Source of the DNA: Flavobacteriia bacterium
Lineage (GTDB): Bacteria > Bacteroidota > Bacteroidia > Flavobacteriales > Schleiferiaceae
DNA length: 64,000 nt
NCBI GenBank assembly: GCA_013373425.1
Contig: JABXHW010000021.1
Coordinates: 1-64,000, forward strand
Reading direction: 5' to 3'
The notes beneath the pieces are model-generated. The model was not told the DNA's origin. It saw nothing but the letters and a program-made list of their open reading frames with translations, and searched no databases. How positions within the stretch are numbered: the first letter of the stretch is position 1; every line of letters begins with the position of its first letter. A program made the translations under genes and the position numbers. Below are positions 18,601-24,652 of the stretch, in pieces.

Positions 18601-19743
18601 ATGCATTTTGAACTGACTGAAGAACACAAAATGATTCGCGACACGGCTCGCGATTTTGCACAGAACGAACTCCTTCCAGGTGTTATCGAGCGCGATACAC
18701 ACGAGAAATTCCCTGCAGAGCAGGTGAAGAAAATGGGTGAGCTCGGATTCATGGGAATGATGGTGGACACCAAGTACAATGGCAGTGGTATGGATACCAT
18801 GAGCTATGTGTTGGCAATGGAGGAAATCTCTAAAATTGATGCTTCTGCATCAGTTGTGATGTCGGTGAACAACTCCTTGGTATGTTGGGGTCTCGAGAAG
18901 TTCGGTACTGAAGAGCAAAAGGAGAAGTACTTGAAGCCTTTGGCGTCAGGTGAAGTCATCGGTGCATTCTGTTTGTCTGAGCCAGAAGCAGGTTCAGATG
19001 CAACTTCACAGCGCACAACAGCAATCGATAATGGTGACCACTATATCTTGAACGGAACGAAGAACTGGATTACCAACGGTAATTCAGCATCGGTTTACCT
19101 CGTGATGGCACAAACCGACGTAGAGAAAGGTCACCGTGGAATCAACTGCCTAATCGTAGAGAAAGGCATGGAAGGATTCCAGGTAGGCAAGAAGGAAGAA
19201 AAGCTCGGTATTCGCGGATCAGATACGCACTCTTTGATGTTCACTGACGTGAAAGTTCCAAAGGAGAATCGCTTGGGTGAAGACGGATTTGGATTCAAAT
19301 TCGCCATGAAAGTGTTGAGCGGTGGTCGTATCGGTATCGCAGCTCAAGCATTGGGTATCGCTAGCGGTTCTTTGGAATTCGCAACGAAGTACGCGAAAGA
19401 GAGAAAGGCATTCGGTAAGCCAATCATCGAGCACCAAGGTGTAGCTTTCAAACTAGCCGAGATGGCTACGAAGGTAGAAGCTGCTCGCCACCTTGTATTG
19501 AAAGCGGCTTGGTTGAAAGATCAAGGTATGCCATTCGACAAGGAGAGTGCAATGGCTAAGCTTTATGCTTCAGAAGTAGCAATGTATGCTTCAGTTGAAG
19601 CTGTTCAGATTCACGGTGGCTACGGTTACGTGAAAGAGTACCACGTTGAGCGCTTGATGCGTGATGCGAAAATTACTCAGATTTATGAGGGTACTTCAGA
19701 AATTCAGAAGATTGTGATTTCTCGTTTCCTCGCAAACGAATAA
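18601..19743 (+). CDS. Acyl-CoA dehydrogenase (short-chain/butyryl type)
   Basis: 380 residues, a full-length FAD-dependent acyl-CoA dehydrogenase. Visible landmarks are the FAD/substrate segment FCLSEPEAGSDA, the WITNGNSASVYLVMA strand, RKAFGKPIIEHQGVAFKLAEM and the catalytic Glu363 in IYEGTSEIQKI, the position used by short-chain and butyryl-CoA dehydrogenases. It introduces the alpha-beta double bond of acyl-CoA in beta-oxidation or short-chain acid metabolism. It is monocistronic, with its own promoter element and a strong terminator. It lies directly upstream of the diiron/Ole operon. Confidence 0.93.
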   Translation: MHFELTEEHKMIRDTARDFAQNELLPGVIERDTHEKFPAEQVKKMGELGFMGMMVDTKYNGSGMDTMSYVLAMEEISKIDASASVVMSVNNSLVCWGLEKFGTEEQKEKYLKPLASGEVIGAFCLSEPEAGSDATSQRTTAIDNGDHYILNGTKNWITNGNSASVYLVMAQTDVEKGHRGINCLIVEKGMEGFQVGKKEEKLGIRGSDTHSLMFTDVKVPKENRLGEDGFGFKFAMKVLSGGRIGIAAQALGIASGSLEFATKYAKERKAFGKPIIEHQGVAFKLAEMATKVEAARHLVLKAAWLKDQGMPFDKESAMAKLYASEVAMYASVEAVQIHGGYGYVKEYHVERLMRDAKITQIYEGTSEIQKIVISRFLANE

Positions 19744-19764: not shown

Positions 19765-19799
19765 AAACCCCGTTGACCAATATGTCAGCGGGGTTTTTT
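19765..19799 (+). terminator. Rho-independent terminator of the acyl-CoA dehydrogenase gene
   Basis: AAACCCCG-t-TGAC, loop CAATAT, GTCA-g-CGGGGTTTTTT: a GC-rich stem followed by a T run, 22 nt after the stop codon. Confidence 0.9.
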
Positions 19800-19876: not shown

Positions 19877-20791
19877 ATGAAACCTTTAACTCAAACAGGT
19901 TTCAGCCCTTCTGCCTTCGAAGAAAAGGTGGAGAGGTTGATTCGTGTCAGCATTCAAAAGCCATTGCTTCCTGAAGAATTCGTTCCGTGGGAAGATCCGA
20001 TGGATGAGGCGGATAAATATCTTCCTCAAACACTGACCTCTTTACATGGGCACCCCTTGTGGGACACACTTTCACCAGAAGCTCAAGTTGAGCTTGGGAA
20101 GATGGAAGTCGTTCAATCCATGTACTCCTATGCTTGGTCTGAAACATTGGCCTGTCTCTTTTTCAATCGACATCTTCTCACTCTTTCTCCAGATTCTGTG
20201 GAGCACCGCTTTTTGCTCCGCGAGTTGATCGAGGAGTGTCGACATCAAGAGATGTTTAGTCGAGCCATTCGAACATTGGGACTAAAGCCCGTTGAGCCTA
20301 CGCGACTGCATCGGTTCTTTGGAAATCTTACCGTTCGATATCTCCCAGCACCCGCCGTATTCATGTCGGTGATGTCGATCGAGCTCATGGCTGATATTTA
20401 TGCGAAACACATTCGCAAAGATCCTGAAGTGTACAGCGTCTTGAGGAAATGTTCCGAACTGCATCACATTGAAGAGGGAAGGCATATTGTTTACACAGAA
20501 ATGTGGCTGGAGAAATTCACAGCGAAGGCTGGTTTCTTTCGATCTACCCTCTACAGTTTTGTCGTACTCTTCAACCTGTACTTCATGCGCACCTTGTATG
20601 TGAAGCAGGAGTTTTTTGAGCGACTTGGGGTAGAGAACCCTAAGGCATACCACAAGGCAGCTTCGGCTAACCTCGCGAAGAAGTTTCCAGATGTAGCGCT
20701 CACACATATCATCGAATTTGTGTCGAAATTCAATGGATTCAACTTCATTACTAAGCCGTTTTGGAGACGTATAATGAAGGTGAAGTTATGA
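19877..20791 (+). CDS. AurF-type diiron oxygenase
   Basis: 304 residues, largely helical and without a signal peptide. The residues match the seven-ligand pattern of the AurF (p-aminobenzoate N-oxygenase) family: Glu89, the pair Glu120/His123 in EECRH, Glu169 in SIEL, and His196, Glu200, His203 in HHIEEGRH. The 27-residue gap from Glu169 to His196 and the H-x3-E-x2-H ending have AurF spacing. Members use a diiron centre and O2 to oxidise amines or carbon. Its stop overlaps the ATG of the OleA-like gene, so it belongs to a biosynthetic operon with OleA/C/D homologues. The substrate is unknown; N-oxygenation should not be assumed. Confidence 0.82.
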   Translation: MKPLTQTGFSPSAFEEKVERLIRVSIQKPLLPEEFVPWEDPMDEADKYLPQTLTSLHGHPLWDTLSPEAQVELGKMEVVQSMYSYAWSETLACLFFNRHLLTLSPDSVEHRFLLRELIEECRHQEMFSRAIRTLGLKPVEPTRLHRFFGNLTVRYLPAPAVFMSVMSIELMADIYAKHIRKDPEVYSVLRKCSELHHIEEGRHIVYTEMWLEKFTAKAGFFRSTLYSFVVLFNLYFMRTLYVKQEFFERLGVENPKAYHKAASANLAKKFPDVALTHIIEFVSKFNGFNFITKPFWRRIMKVKL

Positions 20792-21774
20792 ATACCGCAT
20801 ACGTTAGGGGATTGGCGCATTACCTGCCCGAGCAGGTGGTGAACCACGACCATATAGAAAGCCAAGTGGCCTTCGACGACCTCCCTAAAGGTGCGCTGAA
20901 GAAGTACTTGGGAGAACACACACGACGATTTGCGGAGAAAGGCGTCCAGGTGAGCGACCTAGCCGTTCAAGCTGCAAAGAACCTGATGAAGAAGTACCAA
21001 CGATTTGAGTTTGATCTACTCATTTTCGCGGCGGCTTCATCGGATTTGATTGAGCCTTCTACGGCCAGTATCATTCAGTCGAAATTAGGATTGAAATGTC
21101 CCGTTTTCGATTTAAAGAATGCCTGTAATGGGTTCACAAACGCCCTGCATGTGGCCACGTCTTTTATCCAAACAGGCGCATACAAGAACATCTTGATTGT
21201 CAATGGTGAGAAGTTGAGTGAAGTCATCAATTATGAGCCCGAGGATGCCAATCATCTCAAACGACTCCTTGCTGCCTACAGCCTTGGCGATGCAGGCGTG
21301 GCGATGTGGCTTTCCAACGACGGCGAGCATAGCTTGGGCTATCAAACCCTCGCGAGCCATGGTGAATATTGGGACTTGTGCAGTGTTCGTGGTGGAGGAT
21401 CGATGGCCTTCCGTGACCCAAAGGCTTATTACTTTGAGTCTGATTCCGTGGCTTTGAGAAATGCATTCCGAGTCCACACCTTCGAATTCTTCGAGTCGGC
21501 CTTGAAAGCATCGGGATTTGATCGCCTAGATTTCAACAGAGTGATTTGTCACCAGATTACGAGTTCCACCATAAAGGAAGTCTCTAGCAATTTAGATATT
21601 CCTCTGGATCGATTCTATCAGGCATTTCCGCTATCCGGAAATGTGGCGGCCGGGACTGTCCCTCTCTCGTTGAGTATGGCGGAGGAAGAAAGTGCACTCA
21701 ATTCAGGTGACCTGATTCTCCTCCTCGGTTTTGCTGCGGGAATTAGCCTATCCTTTCAAGTGATTCGTTGGTGA
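20788..21774 (+). CDS. OleA-like beta-ketoacyl-ACP synthase III / acyl-CoA condensing enzyme
   Basis: 328 residues of the FabH/OleA thiolase fold. The catalytic triad is visible: Cys113 (LKNACNGF), His255 (ICHQITSS) and Asn285 (SGNVAAGT). Glu89 lies in LIEPSTA, where FabH enzymes usually have a hydrophobic residue and OleA has the glutamate proposed to act as a base in head-to-head condensation. Immediate neighbours are homologues of OleC and OleD. The likely reaction is condensation of two activated acyl chains to a beta-keto acid. The start is the ATG overlapping the diiron gene stop. An alternative is an ordinary FabH-like starter enzyme. Confidence 0.8.
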   Translation: MNTAYVRGLAHYLPEQVVNHDHIESQVAFDDLPKGALKKYLGEHTRRFAEKGVQVSDLAVQAAKNLMKKYQRFEFDLLIFAAASSDLIEPSTASIIQSKLGLKCPVFDLKNACNGFTNALHVATSFIQTGAYKNILIVNGEKLSEVINYEPEDANHLKRLLAAYSLGDAGVAMWLSNDGEHSLGYQTLASHGEYWDLCSVRGGGSMAFRDPKAYYFESDSVALRNAFRVHTFEFFESALKASGFDRLDFNRVICHQITSSTIKEVSSNLDIPLDRFYQAFPLSGNVAAGTVPLSLSMAEEESALNSGDLILLLGFAAGISLSFQVIRW

Positions 21775-23294
21775 TGCAGTTTTACAGTTCACCATTTGTG
21801 GAGGCACTTTGGTCTCGAACCAATGATGAAGTCGTTCTCTTTGAAAAGCAGGGTCATCGGACAGCCGGCGAGCTAAAGTCACATGCGGTGGCGATGGCTG
21901 CCGAACTTAGAGAATCCGGACTGCAAAACGGTGAGCGGGTGGTGCTTGCCATTGTGCCAGGATGGACCTTCTTGGTTGCGGTTTATGCTTTACTTCTCAA
22001 TGGTGCCGAATTGGTTCTTATCGACCCGGAAATGGGAGAGGAGAACTACAGAGAGAAGTTGAAGCAGCTCGATGCGAAATGGGCCATTGCCGATCGGAGA
22101 ATTCTCTTCGTGGATGAACATCCCATCATCAAATGGATCATTCGTAGGAAGGGGGTTGCGTTGCCGGCTATTCGAAAGTTTGAAGGATTCATCTTTTCCG
22201 TAGGACCGCGTATACCGCTTGTGAAGCGAGCGCGGCATCTGAAGCTGAAATCTGCGGAATTGGAATCCGTTGAACTGGTGATGAATGCTCCGGAGACTCC
22301 GACCTTCATAGTGTATACGAGTGGTACGGTAACTGCTCCGAAGGGGGTTTCTCACAGCTTGAGAAGTCTGGGAGAGAGTATCCGCCTATTGGGCGAATTG
22401 CTTCGTAGAGAAGGAGCCACTCACCTTGCTACCCACATGCCCCATTATCAGTTGTTGGGAGTCATTGCAGGTATTCGGGTAAGCACATGGAATCCGAGTC
22501 AGACGCCCGCTCAAAAGCTCCGATTCATACAAGAGAACCAAGTCACCACACTATTTGGGCCTCCAAGTGATTTTCTGCCCTTGATTCAATATCTCGAAGC
22601 AAACGAATTAGAATGGCCTTCGTCTTTAAAGCGGATTTACTTGGGCTCAGCACCAGTACATGTATCTTACTTAGAACGGTGGTTTTCCAGCCCGTCTGCT
22701 CCGGAGTGCACGTGTTTGTACGGCATGACTGAACATCTTATGGGAGCCTATGTAGATGGCAGAGAAAAATTACAAACCGAAGTGGATGGTGATTTACTTG
22801 GGCATCCTTTTCCAGGAGTGTCTTTTCGAGAAGGAGATGATGGAGAGCTAGAGATAAAATCAGATCAGATCTTCTTAGGGTATTTAGAAAGAGAACCACA
22901 ATCAGGATGGCATCCAACAGGCGATTATGGTGCTGTGGATACCCAAGAGAGAGTCATTCTAAAAGGCCGAAAGAAAGACATGATCATCCGCGGCAACTTC
23001 AATATTTACCCGGCCCTCTATGAATCGACTATTGAAAAGATTCCAGGCGTGGACGAAGCGGTTTTGGTCGGTATATATGATGAAGGCAGAGCGGATGAAG
23101 TGGTTGGACTTATCGTACAAGGCAAGAAAGAGTTGAGTGAGAACGCGATTCTGACCGCGCTAAAGTCGGGTGCCACCTCAATTGACCGTGCCGCTTGGCC
23201 CGATAAGGTTTACTTTAGAGATATACCGCGCTCAGGTAGAAGTGGTAAAGTAGACAAAGAGAAACTTCGCAAATGGATGAAGACGCAACTGTAG
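21774..23294 (+). CDS. OleC-like AMP-dependent acid ligase (candidate beta-lactone synthetase)
   Basis: 506 residues of the ANL superfamily. Motif A3 is YTSGTVTAPKG (181-191), A5 is LYGMTE, A7 is PTGDYG, A8 is LKGRKKDMIIRGNFNIYP, and the A10 lysine is Lys492 in RSGRSGKVDKEKL, so the adenylating machinery looks complete. In Ole pathways OleC adenylates a beta-hydroxy acid and closes it to a beta-lactone. The gene starts inside the OleA-like stop (TGATG) and ends inside the reductase gene. It could instead be a generic acyl-CoA or acyl-ACP ligase; the OleC reading rests mainly on its flanking genes. Confidence 0.75.
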   Translation: MQFYSSPFVEALWSRTNDEVVLFEKQGHRTAGELKSHAVAMAAELRESGLQNGERVVLAIVPGWTFLVAVYALLLNGAELVLIDPEMGEENYREKLKQLDAKWAIADRRILFVDEHPIIKWIIRRKGVALPAIRKFEGFIFSVGPRIPLVKRARHLKLKSAELESVELVMNAPETPTFIVYTSGTVTAPKGVSHSLRSLGESIRLLGELLRREGATHLATHMPHYQLLGVIAGIRVSTWNPSQTPAQKLRFIQENQVTTLFGPPSDFLPLIQYLEANELEWPSSLKRIYLGSAPVHVSYLERWFSSPSAPECTCLYGMTEHLMGAYVDGREKLQTEVDGDLLGHPFPGVSFREGDDGELEIKSDQIFLGYLEREPQSGWHPTGDYGAVDTQERVILKGRKKDMIIRGNFNIYPALYESTIEKIPGVDEAVLVGIYDEGRADEVVGLIVQGKKELSENAILTALKSGATSIDRAAWPDKVYFRDIPRSGRSGKVDKEKLRKWMKTQL

Positions 23295-24229
23295 TGAAGG
23301 TTCTAGTTACTGGGGCTTCTGGATTTATAGGAGGGGCCATCGTCGACGAACTGGCTAAATCCAATCGATATCACGTCACTGCAACTGGACGTTCCGCTGT
23401 GACTAAATGGGACGCTGCTGCAAACGTGCAGTATATATCAATGGATCTTTCAAAAAATCTGCATGTCCTTTCATTCGACATATGCGTGCATTGCGCAGGC
23501 TTGGCAGATGATAAATCGACAGAAGTGGAGCTGTACGATGCGAATGTTCGTGCGACCGAGAACTTATTGAACGCCTTGGAAGGCTGTCACACCTTCATCA
23601 ATATTTCATCCGGCTCGGTTTATCAGTTTGGCTCTCCGAATCCTCTGAAAGAACATGAAGTACCATCTCTCGCCCCAAGTTTGTACGGCCAAAGTAAGCG
23701 TGAAGCCGAGAAGTGTGTGGAGTCGTCAGATTTAGAGCGAAGAATCAGCTTGCGACCGCGGGCAGTATATGGCCCAGGTGATAAAACGCTTTGGCCTCGG
23801 TTCTTGGCGCGAATTCGAAATGGGAATCTGGTCATGCCCGGACCATTGAGTCCAGCTGTGAGCATGACGCATGTGGACAATCTGGTTGGCGCGGTCATTC
23901 TGAGCATGGAAAAGGCCAAGCCAGGGTATGCGGTGTACAACATCGCCGATGCGCATGTGTATTCCCTCCGAGATATTTTTGAAAATATCCTCCGAATCGT
24001 ATTCCAGGGAAAGGGCCGACATAAGGTGATCACCATCCCTCAGCATATTTTGCGCGGAGTTGTGCGAGTTGCTAAGTTGTTCAGGGTGCCCATTTCTTTA
24101 TCTCATCAAGCTATCGACTATGTCACTCAGCCTGCGGTGATTAACATATCGGCTATTCAGAATGACCTGGGCTATTCAGGTGAGGTGAAAAAAGAAAATC
24201 GCCCGGATGTGGGCGATTTCATGTCTTGA
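23273..24229 (+). CDS. OleD-like NAD-dependent epimerase/dehydratase (short-chain reductase)
   Basis: 318 residues. The N-terminal Rossmann motif is VLVTGASGFIGGA, and the catalytic Tyr/Lys pair lies in SLYGQSKREAE. LRPRAVYGPGD and the later MTHVDNLVGAV match the 3-beta-HSD/OleD branch of extended SDR proteins. In the Ole pathway OleD reduces the beta-keto acid from OleA to the beta-hydroxy acid used by OleC. It overlaps the OleC-like gene by 22 nt; a GTG at 23294 is an alternative start. The last codons contain a hairpin that seems to terminate the opposing lipoprotein transcript. Confidence 0.75.
   Translation: MDEDATVVKVLVTGASGFIGGAIVDELAKSNRYHVTATGRSAVTKWDAAANVQYISMDLSKNLHVLSFDICVHCAGLADDKSTEVELYDANVRATENLLNALEGCHTFINISSGSVYQFGSPNPLKEHEVPSLAPSLYGQSKREAEKCVESSDLERRISLRPRAVYGPGDKTLWPRFLARIRNGNLVMPGPLSPAVSMTHVDNLVGAVILSMEKAKPGYAVYNIADAHVYSLRDIFENILRIVFQGKGRHKVITIPQHILRGVVRVAKLFRVPISLSHQAIDYVTQPAVINISAIQNDLGYSGEVKKENRPDVGDFMS
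24187..24219 (-). terminator. Terminator of the minus-strand lipoprotein gene, inside the OleD-like coding region
   Basis: AAATCGCCC-GGATGT-GGGCGATTT (24196-24219) is a perfect 9-bp stem with a 6-nt loop. On the minus strand it is followed by TTCTTTTTTC. It lies 11 nt past the lipoprotein stop and within the last ten codons of the opposing gene. Confidence 0.75.
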
Positions 24230-24652
24230 TCACTTGCTCAGATTCCCGATGACATTATCTGCTCCAGTGCCATCGTTGATGATGAAGTCTACTGTTGCTC
24301 CGTCTCCATCACTATTTATTTCGAAGCTTCCGGCCACGGTAAACCCATCTACAGTCTGATTGGGAATGATGAGGTCGTTATTGTACACGTTCGCATACAA
24401 GGTAAACGAGCTCCCTTGATTGTAGAGTCCGCTCAACTCAACCTCGTCGAGTTGTGTTCCTTCGTAAATCGTGATGGTATAGCTCTGCGGCGCAAAATCT
24501 CCTGCAGTTTCTTGACAGGTCCATGCACCGAGCCATTGCTGGCGGTCATCCACATCTATGATGTCGGTTTCACAGCTGCTGAGAAACAAAAAAGCGGCTA
24601 ACCCAAGACTTTGGGCCAACCGCTTTGTAATCTTTTTGATCGTCAATTTCAT
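24230..24652 (-). CDS. Small secreted lipoprotein, unknown function
   Basis: 140 residues with a lipoprotein signal: a basic N-terminus, hydrophobic core GLAAFLFLSS and Cys27 followed by ETD. The mature part is an acidic beta-rich domain (LGAWTCQETAGDF ... GSFEINSDGDGATVDFIIND) of a type common among Bacteroidota lipocalin-like lipoproteins. Its ATG overlaps the OmpH-like stop (ATGA). Codons 9-21 form a terminator-shaped hairpin in the mRNA, so expression may be limited or attenuated. Its own terminator lies inside the opposing OleD-like gene. Confidence 0.7.
   Translation of the reverse strand: MKLTIKKITKRLAQSLGLAAFLFLSSCETDIIDVDDRQQWLGAWTCQETAGDFAPQSYTITIYEGTQLDEVELSGLYNQGSSFTLYANVYNNDLIIPNQTVDGFTVAGSFEINSDGDGATVDFIINDGTGADNVIGNLSK
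24588..24626 (-). terminator. Terminator-shaped hairpin inside the lipoprotein signal-peptide codons
   Basis: In the minus-strand RNA, AAAGCGGUUGGCCCAA pairs with UUGGGUUAGCCGCUUU as a 16-bp stem with three G-U wobbles and a 4-nt loop. A run of six U residues overlaps its 3' arm and is followed by GUUUCUC. The shape is that of an intrinsic terminator for the OmpH-like transcript, yet it lies in codons 9-21 of the next gene, whose frame is intact. Confidence 0.6.

Follow-up and report, generated by a model that had tools for sequence, protein, structure and literature searches.

The DNA window analyzed here (64,000 nucleotides of a Flavobacteriia bacterium of the Schleiferiaceae, contig JABXHW010000021.1, positions 1 to 64,000) carries, at positions 19877-24229 of the + strand, four overlapping genes that code for an AurF-family diiron protein, an OleA-type ketosynthase (KS), an adenosine monophosphate (AMP) ligase and an OleD-like short-chain dehydrogenase/reductase (SDR). 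This four-gene set, hereafter the cassette, is a conserved, self-contained unit; the preferred reading, to which a probability of about 0.45 is given, is that of an acquired, oleB-less, Ole-like pathway with an added diiron oxygenase, leading to an oxygenated alpha-alkyl beta-lactone or beta-hydroxy acid. The four genes are:

19877..20791, + strand: AurF-family (PF11583) ferritin-like diiron oxygenase, 304 amino acids (Pfam AurF match, alignments, AlphaFold2 (AF2) model)
20788..21774, + strand: OleA-type thiolase-superfamily KS, 328 amino acids, ATGA overlap with the diiron gene (tree, signature, structural match)
21774..23294, + strand: OleC-related adenylate-forming enzyme (the ligase), 506 amino acids, TGATG overlap with the KS gene (PRK09274 match, ANL trees)
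23273..24229, + strand: OleD-like extended SDR, 318 amino acids as drawn, 22-nt overlap with the ligase gene (OleD models are the top NCBIfam matches)

A first-pass annotation had proposed these genes, positions, stop/start overlaps and catalytic residues, and the open reading frames bear it out; its expression "fused by overlap" holds for the overlapping reading frames (a translational overlap), but there is no protein fusion. Since the homologous SDRs begin at MKILVTG, the true start of the SDR may be the GTG at 23294, the corresponding site in the window (MKVLVTG..., read as TAGTG with a 1-nt overlap), instead of 23273.

When genomes were scanned for the diiron protein, ten further loci were retrieved across several Bacteroidota orders: three Dyadobacter strains (CY312, CY323 and MSC1_007) and metagenome-assembled genomes (MAGs) of Flavobacteriales (one), Chitinophagales (one), Saprospiraceae (three), Bacteroidetes (one) and Schleiferiaceae (one). 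The AurF, KS and ligase genes keep the same order and strand in all ten (11/11 with the window), and the cassette SDR follows in nine of them (10/11), so the gene order, whose conservation had been left to be checked, recurs in ten independent loci and the arrangement is therefore not due to chance. Clustering of the flanking ORFs across the cassette loci revealed no further common neighbor. Identity to the window proteins is highest for the diiron protein (42-65%), followed by the KS (38-50%), the ligase (34-44%) and the SDR (29-43%). Among 296 genomes surveyed at the level of the order, the cassette was found in the window genome alone, the two other matches being about 25% identical and in a different setting; a survey of 395 genomes of the phylum gave a match in four.

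The Glu-Pro pair, the tree position and the predicted structure assign the KS to the OleA lineage, even though its sequence departs from the strict published signature and scores below the curated cut-off. The Cys-His-Asn triad (C113/H255/N285) is invariant in the KS alignment, and E89-P90 is found in 10/10 cassette KSs and is absent from the FabH rows. The fragment around E89 aligns with DYLEPSTAS...NAC of the Xanthomonas OleA (XcOleA), so that E89 corresponds to Glu117 and C113 to Cys143; Glu117 is reported as essential in XcOleA and is followed by Pro in nearly all the OleA proteins studied (PMC7064751). All ten cassette KSs fit EPxx[AS]x14DxxNAC and then carry N where the signature used in a published survey, EPxx[AS]x(14,18)DxxNACL, has L (PMC7158056), i.e., they are one residue off. 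That survey, from 2020, found Bacteroidetes to be without ole clusters (PMC7158056); its pattern misses the cassette KSs because it ends in NACL, whereas they have NACN. In the KS tree, the cassette KSs and the OleAs lie on one side and all FabH-type sequences on the other (support 100/100), and the AF2 model has XcOleA (4kti) as its best match (template modeling score 0.89, root-mean-square deviation 2.4, against mostly 2.6-3.8 for FabH rows). Thus, the OleA-like condensing enzyme recognized earlier from its triad and Glu89 stands, and an identity as FabH or another ordinary KS was rejected on tree, signature and structural fit. The nearest KS found outside Bacteroidota, from Streptomyces (L080, 33% identical), also reads NACN and belongs to an oleA-B-C-D operon, NCBIfam backing the last three genes; a similar KS occurs in Nonomuraea with oleB, C and D nearby. 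Two Streptomyces linear plasmids (L081:5051-6927 and L097:7087-8978) bear a pair made of an SDR and a NACN-type OleA-like KS, with no ligase or OleB annotated nearby.

The core motifs of the ligase (A3/A5/A7/A10) were found intact, as previously read from the sequence. Its best NCBIfam match is PRK09274 (147 bits), which is also the top model for true OleCs (657 bits for a Flavobacteriales OleC). In an ANL tree that included adenylation domains of non-ribosomal peptide synthetases (NRPS), a polyketide synthase (PKS) loading domain, and benzoate, malonyl (MatB) and fatty acyl-CoA (FadD) ligases, the cassette ligases fall on one side together with OleC and an OleC-like group (support 100/99). 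An ordinary acyl-CoA ligase lineage was thus rejected with these outgroups, and the grouping with acyl-CoA or acyl-ACP ligases, which the first-pass annotation had considered fatal to its proposal together with a FabH placement of the KS, did not hold for either enzyme. The assignment to OleC is kept in part: the ligase belongs to the OleC side, but it falls outside the OleC clade and its A8 motif resembles that of acyl-CoA ligases. With OleC the cassette ligases share H-x-[TM]-G-D, in which the His precedes the TGD Asp by four residues; in the A10 loop of most cassette members RQxK replaces SGK, while A10 of the window ligase reads SGRSGK. Beta-lactone formation is accordingly predicted for the ligase rather than shown by nesting in the OleC clade. 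OleC-like AMP ligases also occur in a recurring, apparently lipid-related cluster (L053, L054, L055, L056 and L059), together with a PEP (phosphoenolpyruvate)-synthase-like protein, a DUF3419/BtaA-looking protein and a dolichol-kinase-like membrane protein, these three labels having been assigned by eye from sequence.

For the SDR, OleD is the top NCBIfam family, and the OleD models match 9/9 cassette SDRs; the name "OleD-like reductase" is therefore kept as best family match, but the kinship is weak, with a low score and a poorly resolved position in the SDR tree. The OleDs of ole operons in this comparison score 260-371 bits. The clearest pointer to OleD is the locus that lacks a cassette SDR (L023), which has, at the end of the cassette, a convergent, true OleD-like gene (320 bits) that groups with OleD (98/96); this gene adjoins pabB and is tied to the cassette by position only. 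AurF acts on p-aminobenzoate, and pabB is a common gene. Its presence beside this cassette, confined to one locus, was not used as a clue to the AurF substrate.

The diiron protein belongs to the Pfam AurF family (PF11583; 143 bits against a gathering score of 29.6). The seven ligands already listed in the first reading, E89, E120, H123, E169, H196, E200 and H203 (3-His/4-carboxylate), are all present, and they are invariant in the 10 cassette homologues and also in four relatives that are more distant or stand alone. The AF2 model (predicted local distance difference test, pLDDT, 91) matches CmlI (Z 22.4) and AurF (Z 20.7) in VIA-align, ribonucleotide-reductase-like folds reaching at most 18.6, while sequence identity to the solved N-oxygenases is about 12%. 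The second-sphere residues E119 and E199 give the motifs EExxH/HxxEExxH, and all cassette members have this EE/EE pair, as opposed to DExxH/HxxDExxH in AurF and QExxH/HxxDExxH in CylC-type halogenases (PMC12101540); actinobacterial AurF relatives carry DExxH/HxxEExxH. The DE/DE pair of the AurF/CmlI N-oxygenases (PMC12101540) is thus not found in the cassette enzyme, which by its motifs is assigned to a distinct AurF subfamily, and a CylC-type dimetal halogenase was rejected, given that QExxH and HxxDExxH are both lacking.

In 27 genomes, which belong to one family and almost all to a single genus, homologues about 50% identical stand alone: KS, ligase and SDR genes are absent for about 1.5 kb around them (the 14-kb context was viewed for two). 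The two of these genomes that were checked throughout contain FabH-type KSs only and no cassette-type KS. Monophyly of the cassette copies versus the stand-alone ones gave p-AU (approximately unbiased test) 0.455; the stand-alone genes may have left the cassette or have preceded it. In both cases, with close homologues found by themselves in many genomes, the probable substrate is a general metabolite, an acyl chain being the simplest candidate, and the step would then precede condensation; of the roles first proposed, the supply of an oxidized precursor is thus favored over tailoring or cleavage of the lactone. A BioE-type biotin role was not retained except as a lead: bioB lies close to 10 of 25 short loci, tail to tail where checked, and the six-ligand set of BioE differs. 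For the stand-alone genes of that one genus (L104-L128, L057 and L058), bioB proximity may indicate a link with acyl-chain or pimelate metabolism. Two other types of AurF-family genes were encountered. L013 and L014, from two genomes of the same taxonomic order, have a second, distant one (about 20-25% identity) adjoining an FAD (flavin adenine dinucleotide) oxidoreductase, with a FabH-like KS neighbor in L014, and look like a different biosynthetic cluster. Plasmid-borne actinobacterial relatives (L082 and L084) adjoin genes for DUF4873, SDR, FAD oxidoreductase, ferredoxin reductase or alpha/beta hydrolase, a context pointing to a role of this AurF-related family in oxidizing lipids or hydrocarbons.

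No OleB-like sequence was found at the window locus or at any cassette locus, as stated in the first-pass annotation for the operon. The search was extended to the window genome (96% complete), where none was recognizable, the best match having 25% identity and 40 bits; as a yardstick, OleBs of different phyla share 39% identity. OleB is therefore likely absent from the host genome. Eight other cassette genomes, when compared with OleB, gave mostly generic hydrolases only. The candidates in G935, G936 and G938 were set aside as lone haloalkane-dehalogenase-like genes without ole neighbors, though that of G935 (37%) may be an OleB. A true oleB-oleC-oleD set, with no oleA adjacent, was observed in another Flavobacteriales genome (L051:5333-8879, G095).

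What the analysis shows is the gene set, its conservation, the KS and ligase lineages, the intact catalytic residues and the lack of a recognizable host OleB; the substrates, step order and product of the proposed Ole-like pathway are all deduced. The AurF-type enzyme would oxidize a general fatty-acyl substrate by hydroxylation, desaturation or a similar reaction; the OleA-type KS would then condense two acyl thioesters head to head to a 2-alkyl-3-keto acid, with Glu89 as the base for the Cys113 of the partner subunit; the SDR would reduce the ketone; and the OleC-related ligase would adenylate the 2-alkyl-3-hydroxy acid and probably close the beta-lactone. As the OleB step is missing, the pathway would stop at the lactone or at its hydroxy acid, and oleACD sets without oleB have been linked to beta-lactones (PMC7064751). 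The beta-lactone end product put forward in the first reading is hence partly sustained by the OleA-type KS, the OleC-side ligase and the missing OleB, but it is weakened by the position of the ligase and by the loose relation of the SDR with OleD.

Several observations weigh against this pathway. The KS, ligase and SDR are all far under the curated Ole cut-offs: the KS scores 167 bits with PRK09258 (cut-off 285), the ligase 78 bits with NF045786 (cut-offs of the OleC models NF045785/NF045786, 850/900), and the SDR 86 bits (cut-off of NF042422, 580); the Flavobacteriales OleC is also under the NF045785/NF045786 cut-off, yet it scores 566. Several FabH chains outscore OleA for the KS in whole-length phmmer comparisons, and long branches, some of them leading to OleA, occur in the KS tree. 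The cassette ligases are sister to OleC plus the OleC-like group rather than members of the OleC clade, the OleC-like group comes from a cluster of unknown function, and the A7-A8 region (GRKKDMIIR.NFNIYP; A8 KDMII..NIYP) is acyl-CoA-ligase-like. The cassette SDRs do not join OleD in the SDR tree, their relation not being resolved there. The cassette contains no gene for a redox partner or a carrier protein, and the cassette genome G935 has an OleB homologue (37-38% identity), beside a Crp-type regulator and with no adjoining ole genes.

The acyl-CoA-ligase-like A8 and the position outside OleC make thioester formation possible, so the ligase could instead be an acyl-CoA/acyl-AMP feeder: AurF would oxidize a fatty acid, the ligase activate it, the KS condense head to head and the SDR reduce, with a mycolate-like 2-alkyl-3-hydroxy acid as product, or a ketone after decarboxylation. 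This reading, to which the SGRSGK loop of the window ligase also lends itself, is rather unlikely, considering that the ligase groups with OleC and OleC-like proteins, that most cassette ligases lack the SGK glycine and that H-x-T-G-D is common to OleC. Every cassette locus lacks OleB and has AurF, and the related actinobacterial NACN-type KSs occur with OleB; on this basis the diiron enzyme might replace OleB, performing an oxidative decarboxylation or cleavage of the beta-lactone or beta-hydroxy acid to hydrocarbon, aldehyde or ketone. The stand-alone homologues, with their probably general substrate and, in the two genomes checked, no cassette-type KS, argue against it, and we know of no AurF-family decarboxylase; the idea is improbable, and the same holds for its boldest form, a mobile pathway of the Bacteroidota that yields a lipid class not seen before, the AurF-subfamily enzyme performing the last Ole step or cleaving the lactone, as an O2-dependent route to hydrocarbons or aldehydes in place of decarboxylation by OleB.

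A nitrogen-oxidized lipid would result if AurF N-oxygenated an amine-bearing acyl or aryl precursor, as AurF and CmlI do, while the other enzymes build the chain. The closest solved structures are indeed these N-oxygenases, and the 3-His/4-carboxylate set has been described as largely unique to them (PMC12101540); however, the cassettes have no common amine-forming or amine-activating gene, and both the EE/EE pair and the low identity to the solved enzymes speak against this product, which seems slightly less credible still. Finally, generic family annotations and the nearly equal scores of the KS with the NCBIfam FabH and OleA models would suit ordinary fatty-acid genes brought together by chance (FabH, an acyl-CoA ligase and a sugar-epimerase-like SDR). 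The order kept across several orders, the empty sites in congeners, the KS and ligase lineages and the OleA signature make this very improbable, and trees and synteny refute it in the main.

The oleB-less cassette was probably gained by horizontal transfer. The features that border it are:

18601..19743, + strand: acyl-CoA dehydrogenase (ACAD), conserved left flank outside the cassette, 93-94% identical in two congeners without the cassette
19765..19796, + strand: intrinsic terminator, 13-pair stem followed by a T-rich tail, after the ACAD gene, upstream cassette border
24230..24652, - strand: 140-amino-acid lipoprotein gene, convergent, conserved right flank outside the cassette, adjoining ACAD in both congeners missing the cassette

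The strong terminator sets the cassette apart from the ACAD gene. The two congeners preserve the order kinase-regulator-anmK-ACAD-lipoprotein-ompH-hutU, with no cassette between the ACAD and lipoprotein genes. Both may have lost it, yet the scattered occurrence of the cassette makes acquisition by transfer the likelier course. The G+C content is not unusual, and no flanking or target-site repeats marking an insertion were seen around it.

By strict tests, the cassette is not a member of the OleC, OleD or OleABCD families; it is expected to work like an oleACD pathway with an added oxygenase. With the OleABCD olefin pathway of Xanthomonas, Stenotrophomonas and Micrococcus, it shares an OleA-type KS with the Glu-Pro base, an OleC-related ligase and an OleD-like SDR in one operon; unlike that pathway, it has no OleB and includes the AurF enzyme, in addition to the NACN motif, the ligase placement and the scores given above. 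Closer in logic are the oleACD beta-lactone clusters of lipstatin (lst) and nocardiolactone (nlt), in which oleB is missing and the route is expected to end at the beta-lactone (PMC7064751); these are, however, actinobacterial, and lipstatin has the LstA/LstB heterodimer and other tailoring genes, whereas the cassette has a single KS and the diiron oxygenase. In the oleACD cluster of Actinoplanes atraurantiacus, which also contains P450 and glycosyltransferase genes (PMC7064751), an oxygenase is likewise joined to oleACD without oleB, but this oxygenase is a haem P450 instead of an AurF-family diiron enzyme, and the gene order differs. AurF and CmlI have the fold and the seven ligands in common with the cassette enzyme (VIA-align Z 20-22) and differ in second sphere, identity and gene context, that of the cassette being lipid-related. 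The CylC/NocO dimetal halogenases are AurF-like diiron enzymes working on fatty-acyl chains; both their motif and their carrier protein/fatty acyl-AMP ligase (FAAL) context are absent from the cassette. A search of the open-licence literature for AurF joined with OleA or OleC found nothing relevant.

The cassette comprises four genes, is self-contained and occurs in three Dyadobacter strains, which makes lipid analysis and heterologous expression feasible. If the product were confirmed, head-to-head lipid chemistry would extend to a new phylum and gain a diiron oxygenase, and a function would be provided for an AurF subfamily that is also present as a stand-alone gene in another Bacteroidota genus.

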